A stretch of 64,000 nt of DNA, taken from NCBI GenBank assembly GCA_003023405.1, contig PXST01000024.1, positions 1 through 64,000 on the forward strand, in the 5' to 3' direction. The position numbers were made by a program, and so were the translations under genes. The notes beneath the pieces were generated by a model. That model searched no databases. It had not been told where the DNA came from and saw only the letters and a program-made list of their open reading frames with translations. This stretch comes from Halobacteriales archaeon SW_8_68_21. GTDB taxonomy: Archaea; Halobacteriota; Halobacteria; Halobacteriales; Haloferacaceae. Positions 47,682 to 54,985 of this stretch are shown here, piece by piece; position 1 is the stretch's first letter; every line of letters begins with the position of its first letter.

Positions 47682-49367
47682 ATGTCAGCAGATGACACGG
47701 CTGGGCGGAGAGAGTTCCTGAACAAAGCCGGTGCGACGGCCGGCGTCGTGGGACTCACGAGCCTCGCCGGGTGCAGCGGTGACGACTCGGAAGGCGACGG
47801 TTCGGGCGGTTCGGACGGTTCGGACGGCTCGGAGAACCTCGGTGACCCGCTCCCGACGTACACGTACCTGAACAACGCACAGAGCTACAACCCGCCCCGT
47901 CACGACGCGATCAACCTCATCGCGAACCAGTTCGGCGAGCTGGGGTTCGACATGGAGATCGAGGTGTTGGAGTGGGGGACCCTCTTCAACCGCGTGGACG
48001 TCGAGTACGACTACGACTTCTCGACGTGGCACACGTTCTTCACCATCGACCCGGTCTTAGAGCTGGGCACGACGATGTACTCGGAGAACACGAGCGAGGG
48101 CGACGGGAACTTCGCCGGCTACGAGAACCCGGACGCCGACGAGCTGATGGACCAGTACCTCGTCGAGCCGGACTCGGACGCCCGGGTCGACCTCGTCCAC
48201 GAGCTCCAGCAGACGCTGATGGAGGACATGCCGCAGATGCCGGTCATTGACATGCCCGACATCGCGGCGTTCAACAACAACCAAGTCGACAACTGGGAGC
48301 AGGAGCTCGAACTGGGATACAACTCCTACTGGACGATGATCAACCTGGAGATGCAGGGCGACGAGACCACCCTGAAGGGGTACTGGCCCGAGACGCTCTC
48401 CACGATGAACGTCCTCGGCCACAACGACGAGAACAAACACACCTACCAGTTCGCGGTGATGTACGACACCCTCCTCCGTCTCAACGGCGACGGCGAGTTC
48501 GACACGGAGGTGAGCCTGGCCACGGACTACGAGCGGGTCGACGAGACCACCTTCGAGTACACGATCCGAACGGACCACTCGTTCCACGACGGCGAGGATC
48601 TCACGGCCGAGGACGTGGCGTTCACCTACAATTACATCACGGACAACGAGGTGCCGCTGTTCTCGGTCCAGGCCGGCTTCCTCGAGAGCGCCGAGGTCGT
48701 CGACGACAGCACGGTCCGGGTCAACCTCTCCGAACCGCTCGGACCGTTCAACCGACTGGTGGCGACGCAGCTCCCGATCCTCCCCGAACACCGATGGGCG
48801 GACCGCGACGAGCCGAGCCAGGTGAACGTCCAGGAGCCGGTCGGCTCCGGTCCGCTCCAGTTCGACTACTGGGAGAAGGGCAGCGAGTTCGGCCTCACGA
48901 GCTTCGACGAGCACTTCGCACCGGCCGACTTCGAGGACCGTTACTGGCGGGTCATCCCGGAGGCGTCGACGGTCTGGTCGAACCTGCTCGACGGGACGCT
49001 CAACTACGAGCCGTTCGGGCGGATCGACCGCCAGCTCGACGAGAACCGCGAAGAAGACAACATCTCCGTCGAGACGCAGCCCGCGACCTCGTTCTGGCAC
49101 TGTACGCCCAACGAGCGGTCGGGGGGGCTCGACGACCCGGCGGTCCGGAAGGCCGCGTACAACGCGATCCCGCGCACGTCCATCGTCGACCAGGTCCTGT
49201 TCGGCGTGCCCGAACCCGGGTTCAACGTCGTCTCGCCGGCGTTCGGCCCCCTCCACACCGAGGACGTCACGACGTACGAGGAGAGCGTCGAGACTGGTCG
49301 TCAGCGGCTCCAGGACGCCGGGTACGTGTACGACGACGAGGGGCTGGTCCACTTCCCGGCAGAGTGA
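47682..49367 (+). CDS. SBP_bac_5 substrate-binding lipoprotein, apparently circularly permuted
   Basis: A 561-residue twin-arginine lipoprotein (GRREFLNKAG, lipobox LAGC at Cys31). The body belongs to the dipeptide-type family, but the parts are in an unusual order. Residues 75-225 carry the normal C-terminal lobe end (LIANQFGELGFDMEIEV, GNFAGYENPDADELMDQ, HELQQTLMEDMPQMPVI). The normal N-terminal part (VMYDTLLRLNGDGEFDTE, FHDGEDLTAEDVAFTYNYI) begins only at about 255. The protein ends at VRKAAYNAIPR and LQDAGYVYDDEGL, normally mid-protein. It is the binding protein for the downstream permeases and ATPases; the ligand is unknown. Confidence 0.85.
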   Translation: MSADDTAGRREFLNKAGATAGVVGLTSLAGCSGDDSEGDGSGGSDGSDGSENLGDPLPTYTYLNNAQSYNPPRHDAINLIANQFGELGFDMEIEVLEWGTLFNRVDVEYDYDFSTWHTFFTIDPVLELGTTMYSENTSEGDGNFAGYENPDADELMDQYLVEPDSDARVDLVHELQQTLMEDMPQMPVIDMPDIAAFNNNQVDNWEQELELGYNSYWTMINLEMQGDETTLKGYWPETLSTMNVLGHNDENKHTYQFAVMYDTLLRLNGDGEFDTEVSLATDYERVDETTFEYTIRTDHSFHDGEDLTAEDVAFTYNYITDNEVPLFSVQAGFLESAEVVDDSTVRVNLSEPLGPFNRLVATQLPILPEHRWADRDEPSQVNVQEPVGSGPLQFDYWEKGSEFGLTSFDEHFAPADFEDRYWRVIPEASTVWSNLLDGTLNYEPFGRIDRQLDENREEDNISVETQPATSFWHCTPNERSGGLDDPAVRKAAYNAIPRTSIVDQVLFGVPEPGFNVVSPAFGPLHTEDVTTYEESVETGRQRLQDAGYVYDDEGLVHFPAE

Positions 49368-49429: not shown

Positions 49430-50407
49430 ATGAGTAAGGCGAGCTTCGTCGTCCGACGGCTCCTCCAGCTCGGGGTGACCATCTGGGCGGTCGGAACGGC
49501 GCTGTTCTTCCTGTTCCGTCTGATGCCCGGCGACCCGACCTCGTTCGTGGTCTCCTCGCAGATGACGCCGGAAGCCAGGGACCGCATCATCGCGAGCTAC
49601 GGCCTCGACCAGCCGATGCACGTCCAGTACGTGCGATACATCCAGAACGCGCTCACGCTGGACTTCGGGCAGTCGTTCCACTCGAACGAGCCGGTCCAAG
49701 ACGTGATCTGGACGTACCTCCCGAACACCCTAGTGCTCATGTTGACCGCGTTCGTCATCGCGTACATCCTGGGTATCTCTCTCGGGGTCCTGACCGGCTG
49801 GTACCGGGGGTCCCGGTTCGAGAAGTCGACCGTCGTCACCGCGCTGACGGCCCGCAGCGTCCCGACGTTCTACGTCGGACTGATCGTGTTGTGGGTCTTC
49901 GGCGCGACGTTCGATGTCATCCCGATGAGCGGGATGACGACTGCGGGCCAGGACACCGGTTCCTTCCTGAGCATGGTCACGTCGGTCGACTTCGTCCAGC
50001 ACCTCGTCGCGCCGGCCGCCGTGCTGGCGTTCTACTTCATGGGCTACCCCCTGCTTATCATGCGGTCGAGCATGATGGAGGTGCTCTCGGAGGACTTCAT
50101 CGACGTCTGCCGCGCGAAGGGACTCTCCGAGCGAGCGATCATGTTCAAACACGCCGCGCGCAACGCGATGTTGCCGATCCTCACCGCGGCGGCGATCGCG
50201 CTCGGCTACGCGGTCGGCGGGAGCGTACTCATTGAGACGGTGTTCGCCTGGCCGGGCATCGGACGGGAGATGGTCCGGGCGGTGCTGCGGCGTGACTTCC
50301 CGGTCGCGCAGGGCACCTTCATGGTGCTCGCCGGCACGATCATCACCCTGAATTTCCTGGCCGACCTCCTGTACGGCTACCTCGACCCGCGGGTTACCTA
50401 CGACTGA
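49430..50407 (+). CDS. dppB: Dipeptide-type ABC transporter permease (DppB-like)
   Basis: A 325-residue permease with six membrane segments (VTIWAVGTALFFLFRLMPGD first, RYIQNALTLDFGQSF outside loop) and the EAA loop VCRAKGLSERAIMFKHAAR. It begins 62 bases after the binding-protein gene and is followed within three bases by the second permease. It imports peptides or related compounds with the ATPases at 51356 and 52412. Confidence 0.93.
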   Translation: MSKASFVVRRLLQLGVTIWAVGTALFFLFRLMPGDPTSFVVSSQMTPEARDRIIASYGLDQPMHVQYVRYIQNALTLDFGQSFHSNEPVQDVIWTYLPNTLVLMLTAFVIAYILGISLGVLTGWYRGSRFEKSTVVTALTARSVPTFYVGLIVLWVFGATFDVIPMSGMTTAGQDTGSFLSMVTSVDFVQHLVAPAAVLAFYFMGYPLLIMRSSMMEVLSEDFIDVCRAKGLSERAIMFKHAARNAMLPILTAAAIALGYAVGGSVLIETVFAWPGIGREMVRAVLRRDFPVAQGTFMVLAGTIITLNFLADLLYGYLDPRVTYD

Positions 50408-50409
50408 CA

Positions 50410-51355
50410 ATGGCAACACAAGACGAGTCCACGATATTCGGCGACATCGACGACGGAGAGTCCGAGACCGACGAGAGCGTCGACCGCTGGCGGCGGACCG
50501 CCCGGCTGTGGCGCGGGACGCTCGCGGAGCAGTGGCGGATGCTCACCAGCGACCTCATGGTCCGGCTCGCGATGTTGACGATCGGCTTCTTTGGGGTCGT
50601 GGCCGTGACGGCTCTACGATGGAGATGCCGGCGTCATCATCGCCAAGTGGATCGAACCGTCGTTCCTGTCCGCCGAGTCGGAGTACCTGCTCGGGACGAC
50701 CGCTACGGGGTTCGACATCTTCAGCCAGCTCGTGTACGGTTCGCGAGCGGCGCTTCTGGTCGGTCTCCTCGCCGCGGTGTTCACCGCGGGCATCGGCACG
50801 TTCGTCGGTCTCACCGCCGGCTACTACGGCGGACGGGTCGACGACTTCCTGATGCGGATCGTCGACTTCCTGTACGGAATGCCACTGCTCCCCACGGTGA
50901 TCGTGCTGGTCGCGCTGCTCGGGCCGAGCCTCTGGAACATCATCCTGGCGATCATCGTCCTCCAGTGGCGGGCGACGGCCCGCGTGATCCGGTCGCAGGC
51001 GCTCTCCCTGCGGGAGCGACCGTTCGTGAAGGCCGCGCAAGTTGCGGGCGCGAGTGACTGGCACATCATTTCGAGGCACCTCGCCCCCAACGTGTTGCCG
51101 ATGTCGTTCCTCTACGGCGCGTTCGCCATCGCGTGGGCGATCCTCGCGGAGGCGGGCGTCTCGTTCATCGGGCTCGGCGACCCGGACACGGTCTCGTGGG
51201 GAACGATGCTCCAGTCGTCGCGCGCCTACGCCGCGCTCGACTTCGGCGCGTGGTGGTGGTTCGTGCCGCCGGGCATCTGTATCGGCCTCGTGGTCATCAG
51301 CGGGTTCCTGATCGGCCGCGGATACGAGGAAATCACGAACCCGGAGCTGAGATAG
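50410..51355 (+). pseudogene. dppC: Dipeptide-type ABC transporter permease (DppC-like), frameshifted
   Basis: The first frame (from ATG 50410) gives the N-terminal tail and first helix (LAMLTIGFFGVVAVTA). Near 50612-50618 the frame changes and the protein resumes as LYDGDAGVIIAKWIEPSFLS, GTTATGFDIFSQLVYGSRAA, the EAA-loop FVKAAQVAGASDWHIISRH and the final FLIGRGYEEITNPELR, to stop 51355. A single missing or extra base explains all of it. The other four cassette genes are intact, so a working transporter would need this gene; a sequencing error is a real possibility. Confidence 0.85.
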
Positions 51356-52411
51356 ATGACGGTACTCGACGTCAACGACTTGGAAGTGTACTACGAGACG
51401 GACGGTGCGCCGGCGCAGGCGGTCGACGGCGTTTCCTTTACCATCGAGGAGGGCGAAAACATCGGGATCGTCGGTGAGTCCGGTTGTGGGAAGACCACGC
51501 TGGCGAAGGCGATAATCGGTATCCTCCCCGACGAGGGGTACGTCAACGCCGGCTCGATCGAGTTCGACGGTACTGATCTCACCGAGGTGTCCGAAGCCGA
51601 GCGACGCCGGTACAAGTGGGACGAGATCTCGATGATCGCCCAGTCGGCGATGAACTCTCTCGACCCGGTGTACACGATCCGCGAACAGATCGTCGAGGCG
51701 ATCGAGACCCATCGGCCTGGCACCGGCCGCACCGAGTCGGAGGAGATCGTCTCGGAGATGTTCGATCTGGTGGGGCTCGACCCCAATCGCGCGGACGACT
51801 ACCCGCACCAGTTCTCCGGCGGGATGCGCCAGCGGGCGATGATCGCGATGGCACTCGCGCTCGAACCGTCGCTCGTGCTCGCCGACGAGCCGACGACGGC
51901 GCTCGACGTGATCATGCAAGACCAGATCCTGAAACGGATCGGCGAGATCCAGTCGGAGATCAACTCCTCGATGATGGTGATCACCCACGACGTGAGCGTG
52001 GTCGCCGAGACGTGCGACCGGGTGATCGTGATGTACGCGGGACAGATCGCCGAGGAGGGGCCCGTCGAGGAGATCTTCGGGCAGCCGTACCACCCGTACA
52101 CGATCGGCCTCAAGCGTGCCTTCCCGAACATCCGTCGGTCGGACCAGGACCTCCTTTCGATCGCCGGGTACCCGCCGGAGCTGGCCGACCCGCCGGACGG
52201 CTGCCGGTTCGCGGAGCGGTGTCCGATGGCGACGGACCGCTGTCGGAACGAGGTGCCGACCGCACACCACATGGGCGACGACCTCCGGACGTACTGCCAC
52301 TACGCGGACGAGGTCGACGCGGGGTTCCGCGGCCGGGCGGACGACCCGGAGACGTGGGCCGACACGGAGGCCGCGCGGGACGCCCGCTCCGTCGCGGAGG
52401 GTGATGACTGA
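51356..52411 (+). CDS. dppD: Dipeptide-type ABC transporter ATP-binding protein (DppD-like)
   Basis: A 351-residue ATPase with Walker A GESGCGKTTLAK, signature FSGGMRQRAMIAMAL and Walker B LVLADEPTTALDV, plus the oligopeptide C-terminal extension (PPDGCRFAERCPMA) with the Cys cluster that can bind an iron-sulfur centre. It starts right after the permease stop and its stop abuts the next ATG. Confidence 0.93.
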   Translation: MTVLDVNDLEVYYETDGAPAQAVDGVSFTIEEGENIGIVGESGCGKTTLAKAIIGILPDEGYVNAGSIEFDGTDLTEVSEAERRRYKWDEISMIAQSAMNSLDPVYTIREQIVEAIETHRPGTGRTESEEIVSEMFDLVGLDPNRADDYPHQFSGGMRQRAMIAMALALEPSLVLADEPTTALDVIMQDQILKRIGEIQSEINSSMMVITHDVSVVAETCDRVIVMYAGQIAEEGPVEEIFGQPYHPYTIGLKRAFPNIRRSDQDLLSIAGYPPELADPPDGCRFAERCPMATDRCRNEVPTAHHMGDDLRTYCHYADEVDAGFRGRADDPETWADTEAARDARSVAEGDD

Positions 52412-53497
52412 ATGAGCGGAACAGTCGGTGGTGACGAGCCGCTGTTGCGCGTCGACGAGCTGAGAAAGCATTTCAAAGTCGACGAGGGCCTCGTGTCCAG
52501 CCTGCTGCGGGCCGCGACGGGCGGGGAGGCCGACTACGTCCACGCGGTCGACGGCGTGACCCTCGAACTCGAACGCGGCGAGACGCTCGGGCTCGCCGGC
52601 GAGTCCGGCTGCGGGAAGACGACGACCGGCATGTCGCTCGTGCGGCTCCACGAACCGACCGACGGCTCCATCTCGTTCCGAGGAATGAACCTCTCCGAAG
52701 CGACCGACGAGGAGCTGCGGACGTTCAGACGGAATGCCCAGATGATCTTTCAGGACCCGTTCGAGTCGCTGAACCCGCGGATGACGGTGTACGACACGGT
52801 GGCGGAACCGCTCCGCATACACGACGTCCGGAACGAGACGGCTCGTGTCCGCCGAGCGCTCGAGTTCGCCGAACTTCTCCCGCCGGAGCAGTACTACGAC
52901 CAGTACCCTCACGAACTGTCCGGCGGACAGCGTCAGCGGGTCGCCATCGCCCGGGCGCTGGTGTTGGATCCCGACTTCATCGTCGCCGACGAGCCGGTCA
53001 GCATGCTCGACGTCTCGCTGCGTGCGGGCGTGCTGTCGCTGATGGAGCGGATGACCGAGGAGTTCGACCTCTCGGTCGTGTACATCAGCCACGACCTCTC
53101 GCTGCTCCGACACATGTGCGATCGACTCGCGATCATGTATATGGGTGAGATCGTCGAGAAGGGGAAGACGGACGACATCATCGAGAATCCACAACACCCG
53201 TACACGCAGTCGCTGATCAACGCGGTGCCGGTCCCTGACCCGAACGTCGGGCGCAATCGCGTCGAACTCCCCGGCGAGGTCGGCGACACGATTGACGTCC
53301 CCTCCGGCTGTCGGTTCCACGGTCGGTGTCCCGACTATATCGGCGAGGTCTGCGAGACGGAGGAGCCGACCCTCGAACGGAAGGCCAACGTCTCGGACGA
53401 CCGCGAAGTCGCCTGTCACCTCTACGAACCCGCCGACGGGAGCGCGGAGTCGACGTCGACGGACGACGGGTCCGGGGCCGCGGCGGCCGACGATTGA
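52412..53497 (+). CDS. dppF: Dipeptide-type ABC transporter ATP-binding protein (DppF-like)
   Basis: A 361-residue ATPase: Walker A GESGCGKTTTGM, signature LSGGQRQRVAIARAL, Walker B FIVADEPVSMLDV and the Cys-bearing C-terminal extension (PSGCRFHGRCPDYIGEVC). It forms the heterodimeric motor with DppD. It ends the cassette; an acidic, Ala-rich tail (GSAESTSTDDGSGAAAADD) follows the domain. Confidence 0.93.
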   Translation: MSGTVGGDEPLLRVDELRKHFKVDEGLVSSLLRAATGGEADYVHAVDGVTLELERGETLGLAGESGCGKTTTGMSLVRLHEPTDGSISFRGMNLSEATDEELRTFRRNAQMIFQDPFESLNPRMTVYDTVAEPLRIHDVRNETARVRRALEFAELLPPEQYYDQYPHELSGGQRQRVAIARALVLDPDFIVADEPVSMLDVSLRAGVLSLMERMTEEFDLSVVYISHDLSLLRHMCDRLAIMYMGEIVEKGKTDDIIENPQHPYTQSLINAVPVPDPNVGRNRVELPGEVGDTIDVPSGCRFHGRCPDYIGEVCETEEPTLERKANVSDDREVACHLYEPADGSAESTSTDDGSGAAAADD

Positions 53498-53530: not shown

Positions 53531-54985
53531 TCACTCTCGTCCTCGCAGCGGCGCCTCCAACCGCATCGCCGGCGCGGTGACGGCGTACGGGATCCGCGAC
53601 TTGTGTTTCGACGTGACGCCGGTGACTTCGCGAAGTGCCCGTCCGATCCCGTCGATCGTCGCCATCGTCCCCGGCGTCCACGAGAGGGTCGGCTCGACGG
53701 CGGCACCGAGCGTCCCGTCCTCGACGCGGAACCCCTCGGCGACGGGGAGCGCTACCCTGCCCGGCTCCGCCGAGTCGGGAATTCGATCCGCGACGTCGTG
53801 TGCGTACGGAGTGCTCGGAGGCATCGCTCCGTCGCGTTGGGTCCGCTCGAACCGGTCGCGGTAGTACGCCGGCCCGAAGCGTCGGACGTACAGGTCCGCG
53901 TCGGCCAGCAGTTCGTCCACGGTCGCCTCGCCCGGCCGAACCCGCAGGTGCCGGTGGTGGATCCGCGGCGCCTGTTCGAACCCGATCGCCGGGACGACGT
54001 GTCCCGCTGGAGACTGTCCCGCCTCGGCGGCCATCGCGGTGTCGTACAGGAACGACTCGACGCGACCCCGGTCGACGAGTCGGACCGGCGTCGTCGGTCG
54101 TCCCTCCGCGTCGTAGGGAAGCGATCCCCACGATCCCGGTTCGACGACATCGTCGACCGTCAGTGGGGCGTCGGTCAGCCGGTCTCCGGGTTCCAACGGC
54201 GAGAACCCGAACGCCGCGATGTCGGCCGCGAGGTACCCAGCGAGTTCGTGGACCAGCTGTCCGGCCGCCTCGGGGCCGAGCACCACGACGGCGTCTCCGG
54301 TCGGGGGGTCCCCGTCGGGTGCCTTCGCCAGTTCGAGCGCGTCCCGGTCCAGTGCGTCGACGGCCTCGGGGAGCTCGTCGAGGAGCCGAGCCCCGCGGGC
54401 CGTCCCGACGTGTCGTCGCACCTTCGACTCGTCCGGCGGAACGAGCGTCACGTCCGCGTCGGCCCGGTTGACCACCGACCGGACAACGCTCCCGGCAGTC
54501 GTCGCCAGCGACACCTCGGACCGCTCGTCGGAGTAGTAGAGGCGGAGGCGTTCGGGCGTCGTCTCGGTGTCCGCCGCGGCGGCACGGACGATCGCTCGTT
54601 TCTCGTCGAGGTCCCGTTCGGTGACGGACTCCGCGGCCCACCCCTCGTGGACGGCTCGGTGCGTCGACTCGGCGTCGACGCGGGCCGGAGTCGACTGTGC
54701 GAGCCCCTCGCTCCCGGCCACCACCCGGTCGGCGACATCCGCCAGCGCCTCCTCGGAGAGGTCGGTCGTGAACCGATACGCGGCCGCGCCGTCGGCGAAC
54801 GCCCGACACCAGACGCCGGTCGTCGTGAACTCCGAAGCGCTCCGGACGCCCTCCTCGGTGACGACGACCTCGCTCGCGTCCCGATACACCCCTCCGACCT
54901 CGCCGAACGCGACCCGGTCGTCGCCGTCGAGGAGCGAGACGAATTCGTCCACCGCGTCGGCCACCGCCTCCCTGTCGGTCATCAC
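53531..54985 (-). CDS. TldD/PmbA-family protein with altered metal motif
   Basis: A 484-residue TldD/PmbA-like protein (domain I with strands such as VVVTEEGVRSASEF; domain II with the GPEAAGQLVHELAGYLAAD region; C-terminal RIPYAVTAPAMRLEAPLRG). In active TldD the metal site is HExxGH followed by a Glu; here H246-E247-L-A-G-Y251 has Tyr instead of the second His. PmbA/TldE partners also lack the metal site. The gene may therefore be a non-catalytic partner, or bind metal differently. It lies tail-to-tail with the dipeptide cassette, suggesting a role in peptide processing (inference). Confidence 0.78.
   Translation of the reverse strand: MMTDREAVADAVDEFVSLLDGDDRVAFGEVGGVYRDASEVVVTEEGVRSASEFTTTGVWCRAFADGAAAYRFTTDLSEEALADVADRVVAGSEGLAQSTPARVDAESTHRAVHEGWAAESVTERDLDEKRAIVRAAAADTETTPERLRLYYSDERSEVSLATTAGSVVRSVVNRADADVTLVPPDESKVRRHVGTARGARLLDELPEAVDALDRDALELAKAPDGDPPTGDAVVVLGPEAAGQLVHELAGYLAADIAAFGFSPLEPGDRLTDAPLTVDDVVEPGSWGSLPYDAEGRPTTPVRLVDRGRVESFLYDTAMAAEAGQSPAGHVVPAIGFEQAPRIHHRHLRVRPGEATVDELLADADLYVRRFGPAYYRDRFERTQRDGAMPPSTPYAHDVADRIPDSAEPGRVALPVAEGFRVEDGTLGAAVEPTLSWTPGTMATIDGIGRALREVTGVTSKHKSRIPYAVTAPAMRLEAPLRGRE

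Follow-up and report, generated by a model that had tools for sequence, protein, structure and literature searches.

Both native ends of the peptide-binding proteins DppA and OppA lie in domain I in the solved structures, and natural circular permutation is rare among large two-lobed transport proteins. One natural permutant of an ABC-importer binding protein is TpMglB-2 (Tp0684) of Treponema pallidum, a circularly permuted cluster B glucose-binding lipoprotein, whose family, often tethered, has been proposed as Cluster Bc (PMC4990184). Its permuted piece spans some 70–100 residues, and acquisition from another gene has been considered because this piece is poorly conserved in sequence and there is a fourth hinge crossing (PMC4990184).

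Here we describe a gene in a haloarchaeal window (the whole stretch of DNA analysed, 64,000 nucleotides) that is very probably a lossless circular permutant of the SBP_bac_5, or cluster C, class, with a product that would capture peptides in flytrap fashion for a DppBCDF-type importer, an origin by duplication, fusion and trimming, and a family in which permutation has recurred (Table 1). The order of its parts is rotated, with all canonical parts present once, a cut after the AGY helix and a join of about five residues.

Table 1. Features of the permuted binding-protein gene and its operon in the window (aa, amino acids; residues are those of the window protein).
Feature	Position	Strand	Basis
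Circularly permuted SBP_bac_5 (dipeptide/oligopeptide-type) substrate-binding lipoprotein, 561 aa	47682..49367	+	PF00496, solved-SBP matches, rotation scan
Tat signal (RR 9–10) and lipobox LAGC 28–31, lipidation of Cys31 predicted	47682..47774	+	sequence
Tether rich in Gly/Ser/Asp, residues 32–56, running into the C-lobe	47775..47849	+	sequence
C-lobe block, residues 57–224 = canonical ~350–495, normally the C-terminal third	47850..48353	+
Junction of old C-terminus and old N-terminus, residues 225–229	48354..48368	+
N block, residues 230–548 = canonical ~27–347, normally N-terminal and central	48369..49325	+
New C-terminal tail, residues 549–561, aligning with the first half of the AppA post-AGY loop	49326..49364	+
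DppB-type permease	49430..50407	+	PF00528, PF19300
DppC-type permease, frame broken near 50600 in the assembly, intact in 95%-identical relative G022	50410..51355	+
DppD-type ATPase (ABC_tran + oligo_HPY)	51356..52411	+
DppF-type ATPase (ABC_tran + oligo_HPY)	52412..53497	+
TldD/PmbA-family metallopeptidase	53531..54985	-

An earlier note, made from the letters alone, had read this gene as permuted, and the open reading frame, its coordinates and every motif that it named are where it placed them. The motifs GNFAGYENPDADELMDQ (residues 142–158) and HELQQTLMEDMPQMP (173–187) come ahead of FHDGEDLTAEDV (301–312), VRKA (488–491) and DAGY (545–548); on a canonical frame of 509 positions the protein thus reads 358–494 and then 27–347. 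Each block is present in a single copy, behind a Tat signal and lipobox in the right place, as the note also held. Five residues part the old C-terminal strand (INLEM) from the old N-terminal strand (TLKGYW), while the new ends fall in the C-lobe loop just after the AGY helix; both sites agree with the note, which had put the old-end join near residues 225–245. Since the native ends of DppA and OppA share domain I, joining them in this way is plausible, and the tether would then lead into the opposite lobe.

The protein belongs to SBP_bac_5/cluster C, scoring 163.3 bits against PF00496 (gathering score 32.4), which is its sole Pfam match above cut-off; its top PDB matches are all cluster C, and it does not fall in cluster B (type I). 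Positions 6–284 of this profile match residues 279–554 (Pfam, E = 1.2e-47), and a profile search of the own genome placed positions 288–352 upstream, at 47859–48053 (E = 1.8e-4), with positions 6–288 downstream of them. The C block (57–224) therefore stands ahead of the N block (230–548), the reverse of the canonical N-to-C order. Solved SBPs are likewise matched in two out-of-order stretches; in AppA (1xoc), chain residues 59–345 are matched by query 269–549 and chain residues 365–483 by query 65–185. That Pfam by default reports one strong stretch only, and that the match of the C block is a weak one, would suit a protein in which residues 1–220 form a domain of unrelated or foreign origin fused ahead of a C-terminally truncated SBP; that these residues might be an unrelated domain was raised in the earlier note. 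We regard this as highly improbable: the C block matches the C-lobes of solved SBPs (8vdx 357–490, 5u4o 377–506, 4jsd 457–523), and on examination these residues are the C-lobe of SBP_bac_5 itself. A haloarchaeal C-lobe HMM matches the first 240 residues at E ~1e-67, with the window protein itself among the HMM seeds; independent homologues, which for that reason provide the fairer check, match it at E values of 1e-15 to 1e-56.

Rotation of the sequence bears on the same question. When the protein was cut in silico at the old termini and the halves were swapped back, Pfam gave one PF00496 stretch (50–403 against profile 6–352, 174.4 bits) and phmmer aligned query 40–464 to AppA (1xoc) chain residues 59–483 as a single stretch with net length nearly unchanged. 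Once joined, the new ends (DAGYVYDDEGLVHFPAE + GDPLPTYTY) line up with the AppA loop EAGWKDTNGDGILDKDGKKFSF, and thus nothing was lost at the cut. We also scored every rotation with an HMM built from 31 canonical proteins, taking the best single domain: the window protein rose from 205.1 to 283.1 bits, covering 28–492 of the 509 profile positions, a similar gain was seen in L003, and permuted relatives rose from 274 to 380 (L040), 254 to 359 (L077) and 255 to 348 bits (L030), whereas five canonical controls gained nothing and their natural order stayed best. The gain was small in L005 (108 to 115 bits), because a junction insert blocks one continuous domain, and in L034 (352 to 353 bits), because a linker separates off its short moved piece; for L034 the evidence is instead a pairwise comparison (below). 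Rotation thus restores one colinear alignment to non-permuted homologues, profiles and solved structures alike, which bears out the note's claim that order was changed and content kept.

The window protein has the same nearest relatives in a tree of N blocks as in a tree of C blocks, so that we are dealing with one rearranged gene rather than a chimera; together, rotation and congruent trees refute the foreign-domain reading. Neighbours in the two trees agree for the window protein, L003, L028, L036 and L002, and the blocks of the window protein therefore share one history; the C-block tree is short and leaves the placement of L077/L080 without resolution. Of 114 profile matches among solved structures, none of the best 60 has the permuted order, as in each of them the N block begins close to the start of the chain; an AlphaFold run from three sequences only (P0001, L008, L009) gave a pLDDT of 32.5.

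The window-protein order recurs in independent genomes at 95%, 73%, 70%, 68% and 46% identity, and is therefore neither a matter of chance nor an assembly chimera. The assembly is 80% complete and in 55 contigs, and the adjoining dppC frame is broken, through either an assembly error or a pseudogene, so neighbouring SBP fragments might be thought to have been joined in the wrong order by assembly or annotation; we give this practically no credence, as it is refuted by independent genomes, the order being repeated in G022 (95%), in complete genomes and on named plasmids, and the window ORF is continuous. The order occurs in Halorussus, Haladaptatus, Haloprofundus, Natrialba and further haloarchaea, and in a 295-genome sample of the phylum at least 35 haloarchaeal genomes carry it, a lower bound counted from full-length profile matches. 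It is also found in four methanogen-side archaeal genomes (L077–L080) and, with bacterial chromosomes lying outside the sample, in the Alphaproteobacteria Nitratireductor, Microvirga, Ketogulonicigenium, Maritalea, Roseomonas and Neorhizobium, several of these occurrences being on plasmids; a scan of viral contigs found no further homologues. In five haloarchaeal genomes (four well-assembled ones and the window's own), 13 of the 28 SBP_bac_5 loci are permuted when types I–III (see below) are counted, or 14 of the 28 with L127.

Cut sites differ among lineages, an observation independent of the tree. On the canonical frame, type I, that of the window protein, is cut at ~347–358; type II at ~445, between the last two helices (L031, L034, L035, L036, L096), the last helix and strand (~55 aa) being transferred to the N-terminus, an architecture that L033 shares; and type III at ~332–340, before the AGY helix (L028, L030, L062, L064), where the nearest relative, L098, is canonical. 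Type II L034 and canonical L002, from the window's own genome, are 57% identical over 416 aa, and the final 55 aa, which come first in L034, are 38% identical. Within one genus, permuted L127:922-2802 (G026) and canonical L129:1210-3078 (G022) share 33% over 460 aa, with 48% in the 60 aa moved, a similar move in another SBP subfamily.

In a tree of 83 un-permuted concatenated sequences, 48 type I rows including the window protein form one clade (support 93/83) beside canonical methanogen proteins; the permuted order thus has a large lineage of its own, which takes in haloarchaea and Alphaproteobacteria alike, the outcome of a homologue check that the earlier note had proposed. Other type I proteins fall outside this clade: L077/L080 lie close to a Fusobacterium protein of canonical order, and L003 groups with type III L028/L030/L064 and the canonical L098. 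An approximately unbiased (AU) test rejects a single clade for all rows of type I order (p = 3e-5, type III rows in the set), and for groups picked after the tree was seen it gave p = 0.036 (main clade plus methanogen rows) and p = 0.011 (main clade plus L003). The case for separate origins of the type I order leans in part on the latter two results, whose p values are modest. A single ancient permutation as the source of every permuted protein, followed by renewed permutation or a return to canonical order, would accord with the 48 of 54 permuted rows that share one clade and a common type I cut, and with the borderline p of 0.036, but is improbable given three distinct cut zones, the nested position of canonical L098, which falls with starred support between L003 and rows of the L028 type, the sister relationship of L034 to canonical L002, and permuted L127 set against canonical L129. 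We infer from these sequence comparisons that permutation in the SBP_bac_5 family probably happened more than once, with lineages using different cut sites. More tentatively, and with rather less than even confidence, the fold may be unusually prone to permutation since its native ends adjoin, with at least five independent lossless permutations in at least three cut zones, all derived from tandem copies that had fused, and each shifting the tether and thereby the contact with the importer.

As to the route, an SBP gene may have been duplicated in tandem, the copies fused into one chain, and the outer ends trimmed to leave the permuted order. This is supported by the fused tandem L112:810-3887 from methanogen-side G144, a single 1026-aa ORF in which one signal peptide precedes two complete SBP_bac_5 copies that share 68% identity and are arranged N-C-N-C, and by the tandem SBP genes also present at L089 and L103. 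Without its outer halves L112 would have the type I order; it belongs to another lineage and is not the direct ancestor. The junctions in L005, L037 and L039 run to ~50–90 aa rich in Gly, Ser, Asp and Thr, against ~20 aa in sister sequences. Such long acidic junctions were considered as relics of a second lipoprotein tether, an idea abandoned on account of the short junctions in sister sequences.

The operon of SBP, two permeases and two ATPases, with a permuted SBP, is kept in archaea and bacteria, and the export signal together with co-encoded DppBCDF-type genes agrees with an SBP_bac_5/cluster C assignment. Most likely the window protein is an ordinary flytrap binding protein serving the adjacent importer: the rotated chain would fold into the usual two-lobed flytrap, capture a peptide or modified peptide and pass it to the importer encoded downstream. 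Operon neighbours include genes of the TldD/PmbA, M20, M28, M81, creatininase and hydantoinase/oxoprolinase families; the predicted substrates are peptides, perhaps N-blocked or cyclic. A TldD/PmbA-family gene recurs beside the permuted-SBP operon, in the window (minus strand) and at L046, L047 and L146, with Natrialba, Halorussus and Haladaptatus among the loci concerned.

In the window protein the lipid tether would enter the C-lobe (domain III side) and no longer domain I. Permutation might thus have been selected because it relocates the membrane tether from one lobe to the other, along the lines of the anchoring idea for TpMglB-2 (PMC4990184): the haloarchaeal forms are lipoproteins tethered into the C-lobe, and L080:2233-3996 ends in a PGF-CTERM-like PGFGVIAVIAGVMAATYLLRRRR, an anchor at the new C-terminus. 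We consider this unlikely, since alphaproteobacterial members carry what by eye are plain cleavable signal peptides, and lack a lipobox, so that lipid anchoring is not a general reason for permutation.

Permutation appears to be both common and recurrent: about half of the SBP_bac_5 proteins are permuted in those haloarchaeal genomes that were checked. Annotation as plain SBPs masks this different architecture, and structure and homology tools that depend on order truncate permuted SBPs. Canonical and permuted proteins as closely related as 57% identity, together with an intermediate in the form of a fused duplicate, make it possible to test directly both the duplication-fusion route and what is gained or lost when the tether moves.

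Compared with described systems, the window protein shares with DppA (1dpp), AppA (1xoc) and OppA all conserved blocks, the fold family by sequence and a DppBCDF-type operon, and differs from them in its rotated order and in having its new ends within the post-AGY loop of the C-lobe. The NCBIfam equivalogs Opp4A, Opp5A/NikA and DppA match its N block in part, with scores far under their curated cut-offs, and none describes a permuted order. Permutation of an SBP is already documented in cluster B, by TpMglB-2; what is new here is the SBP_bac_5 class, for which our literature search, made without most subscription journals, found no report of a permuted protein. TpMglB-2 belongs to another SBP class, and the window protein, by comparison, retains its whole content in recognisable form.
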